A stretch of 64,000 nucleotides of DNA from Terriglobales bacterium (GTDB lineage Bacteria; Acidobacteriota; Terriglobia; Terriglobales; Acidobacteriaceae), in assembly GCA_025936825.1 (NCBI GenBank), contig JAICSO010000012.1:1-64000 (forward strand), read 5' to 3'. The notes under the pieces are model-generated. The model was given only the letters and a program-made list of their open reading frames with translations. It did no database searches and was not told the DNA's origin. Position 1 is the first letter of the stretch; each line of letters opens with the position of its first letter. The position numbers were made by a program, and so were the translations under genes. This document shows, in pieces, positions 25,873-30,225 of the stretch.

Positions 25873-26415
25873 ATGCGACTCGGCGTTTCAAGTGTGCTTT
25901 TGCGCAGTTCCGGGGCAGCGGTTTTAGTCTTGGCATCCGCAGTGTTGCTCGCACAGGAATTGGGTTCACGCGCCACGCTGGTACCGTCTGCCGAGCGCAA
26001 GCCTGCGCCGGATTTTGCTTTAAAAGACAGCACCGGCAAATATTTCTCGCTGAAAGATTATCGAGGCAAAATTCTGCTGCTCGATTTCTGGGCGACATGG
26101 TGTCATGGCTGCAAGCAAGAGATGCCGTGGTTCGTTGATCTCGATCGGAAATACCGTGCTTCCCGCCTTGAGGTTGTTGGCGTGTCGATGGACGATGACG
26201 GTTGGAAGGCGGTAACGCCGTTTATCAAGAGTGCTGGAGTGCCGTATCAAATTGTTCTGGGCGACGAGAAGACGGCAAAGGGTTATCACATTGAAGGCAT
26301 GCCCGATACCTTTCTCATTGATGGCGAAGGGCGAATCGCAGCTATCTACAAGGGGATGGTCGATCGAGAAGACATCGAAAAGAACGTTCAATCACTGTTG
26401 CGAAGTATGCAGTAG
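25873..26415 (+). CDS. TlpA/ResA-like thiol-disulfide oxidoreductase
   Basis: A 180-residue exported thioredoxin-fold protein. ATG 25873 is preceded by a strong AAGGAGG. The N-terminal hydrophobic segment ends near AQELGS. The redox motif WATWCHGCKQEMPW has C77 and C80 with the unusual dipeptide HG between the cysteines (most relatives have PP, GP or PS). The later GMPDTFLIDGEG contains the family cis-Pro loop. It probably reduces or oxidises periplasmic cysteines, or serves a peroxiredoxin-like role. Confidence 0.85.
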   Translation: MRLGVSSVLLRSSGAAVLVLASAVLLAQELGSRATLVPSAERKPAPDFALKDSTGKYFSLKDYRGKILLLDFWATWCHGCKQEMPWFVDLDRKYRASRLEVVGVSMDDDGWKAVTPFIKSAGVPYQIVLGDEKTAKGYHIEGMPDTFLIDGEGRIAAIYKGMVDREDIEKNVQSLLRSMQ

Positions 26416-26473: not shown

Positions 26474-28048
26474 TTATCCTTGCGTCGGGTGCAGCACGCG
26501 ATACGTGTTGCCGCCGTTGGACCACACCAGCACCAGCGCGTCCTGGCCTTTCGGAACGCTGCTGAGAGCCTGTTGGACGTCCTGGGCCGAGTGTACCGGC
26601 TTGCGGTTCACTTCGAGGATCACGTCTCCACGTTGGAGTCCCGCATTTTCAGCAGAGCTTCCGGGCTCAACGTTGGCGACAACTGCGCCATGCACATCGG
26701 CCGGCGCCTGCAGTTCCTGACGCAGGTCGGGCGTTAGATCCTGGAGCCCGAGCCCCCAGCGCGGTTTTTGCTGGCCGTTGTCGCTGGTCGTCGTCTTGTC
26801 GCGGCTGCCCATGGCTTCGAGCGTGATCGGAACCGTCAGATTCTTGCCGTCGCGAATTACGTCAAGCTTTATGGCCGTGCCCGGCTGACGCTGCCCCACT
26901 TCAACCTGGAGTTCGCCGGCATCGTTCATCGACTTGCCGTCCAGGCCAGTGATCACGTCGCCAGTCTTCATGCCCGCTTTTGCTGCCGGTGAATCCGGCT
27001 CAACCTGAGTCACCAGTGCACCCGCGCTCTTCGACAGGTCGAAGAACTTCGAGTTTTCCGGCGTAACGTCGGTGATGCCAATGCCCATATATCCGTGCAC
27101 AACTTTGCCGTGCGCGATCAGGGCGTCGATCGTCGGCTTGACGATCTGCGTGGGAATCGCGAATCCCATGCCCGAGAACGAACCGTTGTCGGAGACGAGG
27201 AATGTGTTGATTCCGACAACTTCTCCGCGAGCATCGACCAGTGGTCCACCCGAATTACCAGGGTTGATCGCCGCGTCAGTTTGAATGAACTGCCCAGGCT
27301 TGCGACGGTTGGTTGGATCCGGGTTCGGGCGATTCAGTGCGCTGACAATCCCGCGGGTGACCGTGAAGCGAAATCCATAAGGATTGCCGAACGCCAGCAC
27401 GCTCTGTCCGGGATGCAGCTTCGTGGAATCACCAAGCGGAACGCTGGGGAAATCGGAGCCGTTGATCTTTACTACTGCAAGGTCGGTCAGCGGATCGGTG
27501 CCCACCAGCTTTGCGGAGTACGTGCGCTTGTCGCTCATGGTGACTTGAATGTCGACTGCGCCTTCTACCACGTGATTGTTGGTGACGATGTAGCCGTCGG
27601 GAGAAATAATCACGCCGCTGCCGAGGCCGTGCTCGATCTGCGGTCGGCCGGGCTGTCCAAAGAAACGGAACGGGCCAGAGCCAGGGCCGAAACCAAACGG
27701 GCCAAACTGCTGCGTCGGATTCTGATCGGGAGCTTGACCATCATCGTCGTTGTCATCGCGCTGCTGAAGTTGACCCATCTGCGGCTTGTGCTTCGATGTC
27801 ACCGTAATGTTCACCACTGCGGGCGTGACGTGAGCTGCAAGGTGTTCCATCGCTTGATCGAGCGCAAGCAGGGCACTGACGCTGCTGTCATCGAGCGGCG
27901 CAGCGGCAGGGGCCGGCGTAGGCGACGCAGCCCGGACGGGACGAGCGAACTCGTATACGCCAAGCGAAATCGCCATGGCGCTCGCCAGTGCCATCGTCAG
28001 CAAGCGCTTGGAAAATTTTTGTTTCATCATTTCTTTCAAATTACTCAT
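26474..28048 (-). CDS. degP: DegP/HtrA-type periplasmic serine protease
   Basis: A 524-residue Do-type protease. ATG 28048 has AAGGAG upstream. An N-terminal membrane/signal segment is followed by the trypsin-like domain with catalytic His in VTNNHVVEG, Asp in LTDLAVVKI and Ser in NPGNSGGPL, then two PDZ domains (GYMGIGITDVTPENS onward and WGLGLQDLTPDLR onward). It degrades misfolded envelope proteins. It lies downstream of blaR1 on the same strand but has its own palindromic operator identical in arms to that of blaI, so it is probably a member of the BlaI regulon. Confidence 0.94.
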   Translation of the reverse strand: MSNLKEMMKQKFSKRLLTMALASAMAISLGVYEFARPVRAASPTPAPAAAPLDDSSVSALLALDQAMEHLAAHVTPAVVNITVTSKHKPQMGQLQQRDDNDDDGQAPDQNPTQQFGPFGFGPGSGPFRFFGQPGRPQIEHGLGSGVIISPDGYIVTNNHVVEGAVDIQVTMSDKRTYSAKLVGTDPLTDLAVVKINGSDFPSVPLGDSTKLHPGQSVLAFGNPYGFRFTVTRGIVSALNRPNPDPTNRRKPGQFIQTDAAINPGNSGGPLVDARGEVVGINTFLVSDNGSFSGMGFAIPTQIVKPTIDALIAHGKVVHGYMGIGITDVTPENSKFFDLSKSAGALVTQVEPDSPAAKAGMKTGDVITGLDGKSMNDAGELQVEVGQRQPGTAIKLDVIRDGKNLTVPITLEAMGSRDKTTTSDNGQQKPRWGLGLQDLTPDLRQELQAPADVHGAVVANVEPGSSAENAGLQRGDVILEVNRKPVHSAQDVQQALSSVPKGQDALVLVWSNGGNTYRVLHPTQG

Positions 28049-28062
28049 GGGTTCTCCTTGTA

Positions 28063-28080
28063 CAACTAAAGAATTAGTTG
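28063..28080 (-). promoter_or_regulatory. Operator-like palindrome upstream of degP
   Basis: Perfect inverted repeat CAACTAA-AGAA-TTAGTTG, 15 bases before the degP start. The core AACTAA-N4-TTAGTT also occurs upstream of blaI. On the minus strand TTGCAG lies about 18 bases before a weak -10, so the palindrome would sit between the promoter hexamers, a repressor position. Confidence 0.65.
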
Positions 28081-28100
28081 ATCTCTGCAAAAAATTTTTG

Positions 28101-29462
28101 CTACGTCTGGTGCGGCGGTACTGGGCTTGATGCCCGCAATGGAGCGGGCTTCATCACCCGAATGCGCCAGATGGAAGTCATAAACGTCACGTTGCCGAAC
28201 GCGTCATATTGCTCGGTTTGCGTGACCAGGTAAACAAAACTGGGAACTCCGGTGTCGCTCATCGCCGCATTCACTACCATTGGGACTCTCTCGTTGATGC
28301 TGCGCGCTTCCTCAACCTGCGGTGCTGGCGCCCGATTTGCTCTGTGTTGCACCTTCTCGACCGGCTGTTTTCCAGCTACCGGCACGCGTGCCTTCAACGG
28401 AGTTACTGCACTCGCTCTGGGCGCGTGCAGCGAGGCATTTACTGCCTTCGCGATCGGGCCGTTCGCATTCGCTACGTAATCGAACCGTTTCGCGGATGCC
28501 GTCCTGACACTCACTGGATCTTGAAACCCCACCAGTTGCGGGGTACGCTGAACCGCAACGAAGCTTACTGCGCCGAAAACTGCTGCGGCCGCAACTGCGG
28601 GTTTCAGCAGAGGCTTGTTCGTTCTCTCGTGCCCGTCAAGAATTTTCGAGATTCTCTGAGCCGTATGCTTCAGATGACTCACTGCTGCCTGTACCAGAGC
28701 GAGTGATCGGTGCGCACGTGTCTTCTCAGCCAAGGAGACCAGGCACGCAGCGTACTGTCGAGCGCTCCGTGACCGGGCCAGCACCATGTCGTCACACGAC
28801 ATTTCACGCTCGATCGACAGTCGGCTATCAATCCACCAGACCGCCGGATGGAAAAACAGCACTGCGCGAAGAACCTTCTGCAAAAGGTTCGTCCAGTCAT
28901 CCCAGCGCTGCAGATGGGCAGCCTCATGCAGAACAATCGTGTGCAACTCCTCACGAGAGAGTTCCCGCACCGCCCACGCTGGTAGCACGACGACAGGTCG
29001 GAAGAATCCTAATGCGGCTGGAACTCGCACCTCCTCCGAAACGCAGATAGAAAATTTTCGCGAACCTTGGACCGATTCATCAGAAAACGAATCCAGACCA
29101 TCCACCGGAGCAGAGCTATTCTTCAGCAGCCGCACCCGCCAAAGCCCGCGAGCTACCCGTGCGAGCCCGAGTGCAGCAAAAAATACCCAAGCGCTAAAAA
29201 TGTAAATGGCCCACTCGGGACGAAGCGAGATATGGGCGGAGCCGATGTGCGTTGCTGCGCTGTGACCGATCGGTCTCGAGAAGAAAAACAGGGAAGCGAT
29301 CGCAATTAGGCCGGCGAACCAGATCACGAAGCGCATGGCGGACCTTTGGCGCCTCGCCAGAGTGCAGCCCGCTCCCGCCAGGGCCGCAACGGCAATCCCG
29401 ACAACGAAGCAATTTGCGATTTGAATGCTGGTAAGCTGGGCCAGACTCTGCAAGGGACTCAT
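28101..29462 (-). CDS. blaR1: BlaR1/MecR1-type M56 membrane metallopeptidase
   Basis: A 453-residue membrane protein with several N-terminal helices and the M56 zinc-peptidase motif LHEAAHL, followed by EREMSCDDMVLA, typical of BlaR1 antirepressors. The C-terminal periplasmic part after the last helix (near PAVAAAAVFGAVSFVAV) is only about 140 residues and has no penicillin-binding sensor motifs (no SxxK/KTG set), so it does not sense beta-lactams in the classical way. It overlaps blaI by four bases (ATGA). Expected role: cleave or inactivate BlaI on an envelope signal, releasing blaI-blaR1 and degP. Confidence 0.88.
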   Translation of the reverse strand: MSPLQSLAQLTSIQIANCFVVGIAVAALAGAGCTLARRQRSAMRFVIWFAGLIAIASLFFFSRPIGHSAATHIGSAHISLRPEWAIYIFSAWVFFAALGLARVARGLWRVRLLKNSSAPVDGLDSFSDESVQGSRKFSICVSEEVRVPAALGFFRPVVVLPAWAVRELSREELHTIVLHEAAHLQRWDDWTNLLQKVLRAVLFFHPAVWWIDSRLSIEREMSCDDMVLARSRSARQYAACLVSLAEKTRAHRSLALVQAAVSHLKHTAQRISKILDGHERTNKPLLKPAVAAAAVFGAVSFVAVQRTPQLVGFQDPVSVRTASAKRFDYVANANGPIAKAVNASLHAPRASAVTPLKARVPVAGKQPVEKVQHRANRAPAPQVEEARSINERVPMVVNAAMSDTGVPSFVYLVTQTEQYDAFGNVTFMTSIWRIRVMKPAPLRASSPVPPHQT

Positions 29463-29842
29463 TTCGACTCGCTCCTTTGCAGAATCTTCTTCAGTTGTTC
29501 GAGTTCCTCGCTGTCCAGGCCGCGGTCCTCCAGAATATTGAGGACCAGTTCCTCGTGCGAATCGCGGAAAAAGCGGCTCATCAGGTGTCGAATTTCCGAG
29601 CGAGTAGCATCTTTGCGTTCCAAAAGCGCCTTATAAACGTGGGCTCGTCCATCCTTGACGTGCTCGACGTAGCCCTTGCGCTCCAGAATTCGAATCGTGG
29701 TCAGAACCGAGTTGTACGCCAAGGCGGGCTTCCCCGGAAGCGCGTCAAGTACCTGCTGGACTGTCCCAGGCCCTTGAGTCCAAAGGATTTCCATGATCCT
29801 AAGCTCGGCTTCGGTCAGGGTTGTTGATGGCTTTGGCGGCAC
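29459..29842 (-). CDS. blaI: BlaI/MecI-family repressor
   Basis: A 127-residue winged-helix repressor from GTG 29842. It contains LTEAELRIMEILWTQGPGTVQQV, AYNSVLTTIRILERKGYVEH and a C-terminal dimerisation segment, all standard for the family. It is the first gene of blaI-blaR1. A 16-base palindrome lies 45 bases upstream of its start, overlapping the likely promoter. Confidence 0.93.
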   Translation of the reverse strand: MPPKPSTTLTEAELRIMEILWTQGPGTVQQVLDALPGKPALAYNSVLTTIRILERKGYVEHVKDGRAHVYKALLERKDATRSEIRHLMSRFFRDSHEELVLNILEDRGLDSEELEQLKKILQRSESK

Positions 29843-29887
29843 CGCGTTTGCTCCCTAACTTTATAGACGTGCAACCTTGCAAAAGGT

Positions 29888-29903
29888 AACTAATTATTTA
29901 GTT
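29888..29903 (-). promoter_or_regulatory. BlaI operator-like palindrome upstream of blaI
   Basis: AACTAA-TTAT-TTAGTT, a perfect six-base inverted repeat with a four-base spacer, matching the arms found upstream of degP. On the minus strand a TATAAA-like -10 lies downstream toward blaI, so a bound dimer would cover the -35 area. This predicts autorepression. Confidence 0.65.
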
Positions 29904-29952: not shown

Positions 29953-30225
29953 CTAACGCGAACGCTTCCGTTTGCGGTCGACTTCGGGCCAATACTGGAA
30001 CTCGGGAACGAAGAGCTCGCTTTCCAGTTCCGACACTCTCTGCGTGAGTCGCGCTTGAACGTCGGCCACGGCGCGGTTGTAGATGAGCGGTCCGACTTCT
30101 TCCACGAAGAAGGTGAGCAGCAGCCCAGCCGGCAAGTCGCCGATTGGTTCCGACATGTTCTCTTCAAAGTAGCGCTTGATGGAAGCGATGGCGTCCTTGC
30201 GTGCTTCGGGCGAGATTTGTATCAC
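29953..30225 (-). CDS. DUF2164-family protein
   Basis: A 90-residue protein from GTG 30225 with AGGAG-like sequence upstream. It contains SIKRYFEENMSEPIGDLPAG and EEVGPLIYNRAVADVQ, the conserved parts of DUF2164, a small mostly helical family of unknown function. The end is strongly basic (KRKRSR). Convergent with no neighbour; it sits alone between blaI and an aldo/keto reductase. Confidence 0.85.
   Translation of the reverse strand: MIQISPEARKDAIASIKRYFEENMSEPIGDLPAGLLLTFFVEEVGPLIYNRAVADVQARLTQRVSELESELFVPEFQYWPEVDRKRKRSR

Follow-up and report, generated by a model that had tools for sequence, protein, structure and literature searches.

A proposed switch of the BlaI/BlaR1 type with the protease DegP as predicted output

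The blaI-blaR1-degP locus

Three genes lie in the order blaI, blaR1, degP on the minus strand of the window, the term used here for the whole 64,000-nucleotide stretch of DNA that was analysed. The first, blaI (29842-29459), has a GTG start and encodes a BlaI/MecI-type repressor of 127 aa; the Penicillinase_R winged-helix domain extends across the whole protein (E 3.8e-33; 114.7 bits against 22.6), which aligns by sequence to MecI and BlaI chains (MecI chain 1okr, E 1.1e-11). The next gene, blaR1 (29462-28101), shares its first 4 bases with the end of blaI, and its product is an M56 membrane metallopeptidase of 453 aa (Peptidase_M56, E 8.2e-34). The third gene, degP (28048-26474), encodes a Do/HtrA-family serine protease of 524 aa, in which Pfam finds a trypsin-like domain followed by two PDZ stretches and which scores 462.9 bits with the Do-family model TIGR02037, above the cut-off of 416.2. 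Its start is most likely the ATG at 28048, with AAGGAG ahead of it. A mechanical list of open reading frames begins degP at an in-frame TTG at 28090, so that operator 2 (below) would be read as codons for STNSLVV; this longer DegP was discarded, given the Shine-Dalgarno sequence ahead of ATG 28048 and an operator-to-ATG spacing that varies in group A of the related loci, defined below. A TlpA/AhpC-TSA-type thioredoxin-like gene (25873-26415) is convergent with degP, and a DUF2164 gene (29953-30225) lies immediately upstream of blaI on the same strand.

The palindrome AACTAA-N4-TTAGTT, which the first-pass annotation had placed upstream of blaI and again between blaR1 and degP, is present in exact form at both positions. 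Putative operator 1 (AACTAATTATTTAGTT, 29888-29903) ends 45 bp from the start of blaI, and putative operator 2 (AACTAAAGAATTAGTT, 28064-28079) ends 15 bp from that of degP; the span of 28063-28080 first given for the latter adds one complementary C/G pair. By eye, a possible -35 box of blaI (TTACCT, 29884-29889, minus strand) overlaps the right half of operator 1, with a possible -10 box (TATAAA, 29860-29865, minus strand) 18 bp downstream of it, and positions 14-18 past the start of operator 1 are conserved in group A. An A/T tract (28089-28099; minus strand, AAAAATTTTTT) lies between the blaR1 stop and operator 2. It is conserved in group A (56 loci), always equally far upstream of operator 2, and is a possible promoter element of degP.

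The first-pass annotation had also suggested a genome search for the 16-base motif. Rather than scattering at random, the exact motif occurs in 6,540,933 bases at these two sites only; the reversed control motif has no exact occurrence in the same bases. When up to 2 mismatches are allowed, the motif is found at 53 places in the window genome against 184 for the reversed control, and since there is no excess, only the near-exact motif is informative. The genome holds four Penicillinase_R genes and further DegP-like genes, and the exact site is found only at this blaI and this degP. A BlaR1 search of the genome contigs returned one locus. The named relative, a Candidatus Sulfotelmatobacter MAG, is one that we take to be an acidobacterium.

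Conservation of the two putative operators

BlaR1 was searched in 100 related genomes and BlaI in 200 family genomes, and the BlaI matches form a clear set that reaches down to E 2.5e-32, with no further match before E 2.1e-25. There are 105 loci with such a blaI, 65 in group A (BlaI identity of at least 56%) and 40 in group B (45-56%), and three further loci in which blaI is missing from the fetched piece (G059, G005, G058). Three more distant loci (G034, G060, G074), five paralog control loci and one locus in which both sites are exact (L020) were set aside before operators were counted, and three second copies without degP (G232b, G211b, G128b), with 3 mismatches each, were retained in the blaI-site counts. 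On this basis the operator at blaI departs from the motif at no more than one position in 94 of 103 scorable loci (exact in 82), and that at degP in 89 of 98 (exact in 53), although 9 loci in each set have two or more mismatches and such counts overstate the number of events, because related genomes are not independent. The reversed motif reached at best 3 mismatches in the same intervals at blaI and 2 at degP.

Across the 200 family genomes the exact motif was found 177 times and the reversed control 43 times; 137 of the 177 fall within fetched blaI-blaR1-degP loci. The 40 that lie elsewhere come to roughly the control number, so nothing in the exact sites points to regulon members other than the two promoters, though weaker sites may exist elsewhere. 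At least two of the 40 are the blaI sites of loci split across contigs (G005:C323, G059:C40), and 23, counted from the letters, carry an extended core, AACTAAC-N2-GTTAGTT. Twenty sites were fetched, of which eight lie at a TetR-HlyD-ABC cluster (L081-L087, L089), one beside a TetR gene (L093), five at blaI-blaR1-degP loci (L095-L097, L099, L100) and six at neither (L088, L090-L092, L094, L098). TetR was identified by Pfam in seven of the eight cluster loci, the TetR gene of L084 not being among the ORFs, and HlyD and ABC were scanned in L082 only. The core at the TetR gene of L093 is a variant of the extended one. Eight of the ten fetched loci with the extended core are at this cluster, and from the sequence the core is probably the operator of the adjoining TetR, easily mistaken for a BlaI site. 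One might then suppose that the sites at blaI and degP likewise serve another regulator, for instance a TetR with a similar operator, and that the link with BlaI is coincidental. This seems very improbable: the blaI and degP sites are mostly without the C...G core and track blaI orthologs over about 100 loci, and blaI paralogs carry other palindromes in place of AACTAA-N4-TTAGTT. Outside sites without the core are few (G011:C36, G164, G025 and G212, for example) and do not exceed the control rate of 43 in 200 genomes. One fetched site (L092, G100:C86) sits on a contig that by eye looks like contamination: it has 32% GC and polyprotein frames resembling those of retroelements, whereas the rest of the genome is GC-rich.

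Other blaI genes of relatives carry TACGAA-N4-TTCGT(A/T) (L215, L218, L223, L048, L049), TCCTAA-N4-TTAGGA (L221, L225, L234, L235, L237, L248) or TACTAA-N4-TTAGTA (L239-L241). These related palindromes suggest several BlaI specificities, and repressor and operator may have diverged together. A blaI-blaR1-degP locus from another family (G060), which came from the BlaR1 search in 100 genomes, carries two palindromes of the TACGAA type ahead of blaI, placed around TTGACA and TATTAT as judged by eye, and no AACTAA-type palindrome was found by eye at its degP. For DegP relatives outside the family (39 genomes), 29 loci were fetched, and among those of them that could be read G072 alone has an M56 gene ahead of degP. 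Within the family, the group B locus G229 (L188) has kept blaI-blaR1 and a one-mismatch operator and has lost the adjacent degP. The closest DegP relative in that genome (38%; L301) lies elsewhere and is without such a site.

The position of the second operator differs between the groups. In group A it lies upstream of the degP start at a variable distance, behind the conserved A/T tract. In group B it lies inside the gene: when starts were chosen without use of the motif, 29 of 32 degP genes have the operator as codons 4-9, starting 11 bases past the A of the start codon, two more carry it in frame but further in (17 and 20 bases), and one has a site with 3 mismatches. Codon 5 is ACT in 30 of the 32, codon 6 is AAT in 28 and codon 8 is the Leu codon TTA in 28, against a background in the rest of the same genes of 11% of Thr for ACT, 33% of Asn for AAT and 1.3% of Leu for TTA. 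These background shares, like the BlaR1 tail codon data given below, are independent of the motif. Rare codons are thus fixed at the group B operator, which argues for selection on the DNA.

BlaR1 without a recognisable penicillin sensor and with a conserved tail end

The active-site motif of the M56 peptidase is intact. HExxH with a Glu at +41 is present in 103 of the 103 proteins that have the motif (G007, a contig-end fragment, has none), and this is the same spacing as that of His201 and Glu242 in Staphylococcus aureus BlaR1, a protein described as N-out/C-out with its zinc held by His201, His205 and Glu242 (PMC9834060, in part). Hydropathy places helices of the window BlaR1 near residues 18-36, 43-61, 85-103 and 286-304, with a weaker peak at 147-165 and a basic loop at 37-42. 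The BlaR1 chain 8exs aligns with it over residues 135-231 only (E 0.013), and an AlphaFold model of BlaR1 made with two sequences had a mean pLDDT of 38.5 and was unusable.

The view of the first-pass annotation that this BlaR1 lacks a penicillin-binding sensor holds up within the scope of the domain searches. Peptidase_M56 is the only Pfam domain found in the window BlaR1 at E 0.01; a Pfam scan of 11 BlaR1 proteins for a penicillin-binding domain gave only M56 and weak metallopeptidase matches; and the blaR1_generic model reaches 83.6 bits, over residues 129-289 only, against a cut-off of 400. BlaI/BlaR1 systems classically respond to beta-lactams (PMC9834060 and PMC7593790, each in part), and the switch could still respond by way of a different ligand to an antibiotic or to damage of the cell wall, with DegP as part of the response. 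This is improbable, however, in view of the lack of a penicillin-binding domain in the 11 BlaR1 proteins scanned, of an operon with neither a beta-lactamase nor a PBP gene, and of exact sites that in the window genome mark blaI and degP only. The retained M56 motif together with the missing sensor suggests instead that the cytoplasmic half of the mechanism has probably been retained in this module, with another input.

Past the last hydrophobic helix, BlaR1 continues into a tail of variable sequence with many Ala, Pro, Ser, Val and Thr residues (residues 305-453 in the window, codons at 28104-28550, minus strand, ending ...PHQT). When orthologs are counted from the C-terminus, conservation is highest at the extreme end. 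For these statistics, proteins that were truncated, too long (above 700 aa in group B) or nearly identical to others were excluded, which reduced group A from 62 to 58 and group B from 35 to 32. The last residue in group A is Ile in 39, Thr in 12 (the window's protein, ...HQT, among them), Leu in 5 and Val in 2, further inward come Ser in 29 and Lys in 27, and a second peak of conservation is a Trp at -22. In group B the last residue is Leu in 27 and Ile in 5, preceded by Gln in 25, with Leu at -5 in 26, Trp at -6 in 30 and Gly at -7 in 27. The codons of the tail end vary at wobble positions, and this therefore indicates selection at the level of the protein.

The tail end goes with degP linkage. 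Before de-replication, the last residue of degP-linked BlaR1 is Ile, Thr, Leu or Val in 62 of 62 group A proteins and Leu or Ile in 35 of 35 group B proteins (97 of 97 in the family), and the degP-linked proteins of G060 and G072 end NSI and LIT. Two of 42 complete BlaR1-like proteins (L049 and L223) are degP-linked, leaving 40 unlinked ones, of which 6 end in Leu or Ile; for linked proteins (n = 92, from 58 + 32 + 2) against unlinked ones the Fisher test, 92/0 vs 6/34, gives p ~1e-25, for sequences that are related. Two upstream ORFs ending VVTT (L279, L297) resemble truncated BlaR1 tails, have no M56 part and were excluded. Of three second copies without degP from the same BlaI clade, one ends in Ile. 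Eight of the unlinked proteins (L212, L213, L217, L226, L228, L230, L233, L238) have a conserved end of another kind, V-I-D-H/S-x-E-x-P-x-x-N-like (...P-x-N or D), which, we presume, recalls the TIGR03435 family.

Two readings of the conserved end deserve comparison. It may form a strand within the BlaR1 structure, or bind a partner other than DegP, in either case with DegP uninvolved; the conserved Trp at -22 and the alternating hydrophobic residues of group A are indeed beta-strand-like. However, the conservation is found at a free C-terminus and accompanies degP linkage, and we rate this reading as less likely than not. The other is a stronger form of the proposed switch, in which the C-terminal peptide of BlaR1 would be a ligand of the DegP PDZ domains and the switch would sense DegP occupancy. 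We hold it tentatively, likewise as less likely than not, on the grounds that misplaced envelope proteins are recognised by HtrA PDZ domains through their hydrophobic C-termini (PMC11642142 and PMC8545111, each in part), and that the gene next to the pair encodes a DegP with two PDZ domains. In its favour are the excess of Ile, Leu, Val and Thr ends among degP-linked proteins, the peak of information at the very end with synonymous variation in its codons, and the ends of the two linked proteins from G060 and G072. Against it, the DegS and AlgW ligands that have been described end in Phe (YxF, WVF) and not in Ile, Leu or Thr, and the group A proteins with a terminal Thr include that of the window. 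Nor is a conserved end special in itself, as the eight unlinked proteins with another conserved C-terminus illustrate; BlaR1 of G229 still ends GWILIRL although its neighbouring degP has been lost, and common ancestry may account for part of the pattern.

If BlaR1 is such a ligand, free DegP would hold it off or trim its tail, and misfolded envelope proteins would draw DegP away, leaving BlaR1 active and BlaI cut. The level of degP would then rise until free DegP returned, making DegP output, brake and sensor at once.

A proposed switch and its relation to known systems

We consider it very likely that the locus is a switch of the BlaI/BlaR1 type, built of repressor and protease and dedicated to DegP. 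The pair is predicted to regulate itself, and its single additional operator, the one at degP, would make DegP the output; the control of its own operon and of degP by BlaI through one operator in two copies, as put forward in the first-pass annotation, gains support from the conservation of both sites over about 100 orthologous loci. A BlaI dimer would bind AACTAA-N4-TTAGTT at the two promoters and keep both blaI-blaR1 and degP off. BlaR1, as an inner-membrane M56 zinc metalloprotease, would on activation of its extracytoplasmic part cut BlaI in the cytoplasm, so that degP would be induced and the repressor reset as well. The extracytoplasmic part has no penicillin-binding domain and amounts to a tail that is variable apart from a conserved peptide at its C-terminus. 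For this reason the switch most likely responds to the state of folding in the envelope, which may be read by way of the PDZ domains of DegP itself; the inducing condition would then be envelope stress.

Staphylococcal BlaI is cut between Asn101 and Phe102 (PMC9834060, in part). In favour of the switch, the window BlaI has LVLN-I at the place where MecI has LVLN-F; the Asn is retained in most of group A. Several observations weigh against the switch. Most of group B has Ser or Ala in place of this Asn. The motif shows no excess over the control at 2 mismatches, the operators of some related loci have diverged as counted above, and G229 is without an adjacent degP.

Staphylococci use a switch of the BlaI/BlaR1 type to sense penicillin, and the lineage that carries the present one presumably consists of soil bacteria. 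BlaI/BlaR1-like pairs are present several times per genome here, and to our knowledge the signal and target of M56 proteins without a beta-lactam sensor are usually not known; this locus gives one such pair a very small conserved predicted regulon, a probable output and a candidate sensing peptide. The short conserved tail of BlaR1, of a kind that DegP-type proteases can grip, hints at a self-limiting stress sensor. If the scheme is right, BlaR1 would act as a gauge of envelope proteostasis, and a repressor-protease module would have been reused for envelope protein quality control, making a stress response out of an antibiotic-resistance switch with no sigma factor such as sigmaE and no two-component kinase. 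A search of the open-licence PMC literature by title or abstract found no report of BlaI/BlaR1 control of DegP; in the parts consulted, PMC7593790 covers BlaI, BlaR1 and DegP, but separately.

The closest parallels are blaI-blaR1-blaZ and mecI-mecR1-mecA of staphylococci and blaI-blaR1-blaP of Bacillus licheniformis. As in these systems, a Penicillinase_R repressor and an M56 protease are encoded in tandem, a palindromic operator stands at both the repressor operon and the target gene, and HExxH...E has the same spacing. Unlike them, the present locus has no beta-lactam sensor, its predicted target is DegP instead of a beta-lactamase or PBP2a, its putative operator is AACTAA-N4-TTAGTT, and BlaR1 ends in a C-terminal tail without an assigned fold. 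In logic, with no homology claimed, the switch also resembles sigmaE/DegS-RseA and AlgW-MucA, where a membrane protease relays an envelope signal to a degP-type output. PDZ recognition of a C-terminus is established for those pathways (PMC11642142 and PMC8545111, each in part), whereas it is a proposal here, and the present switch differs in having no sigma or anti-sigma factor and a cytoplasmic repressor as the presumed substrate. A further likeness, again with no homology claimed, is to Cpx with CpxP and DegP, in which an envelope sensor is subject to feedback that involves DegP (PMC7593790, in part); in the locus described here, proteolysis of a repressor would stand in place of the two-component kinase.
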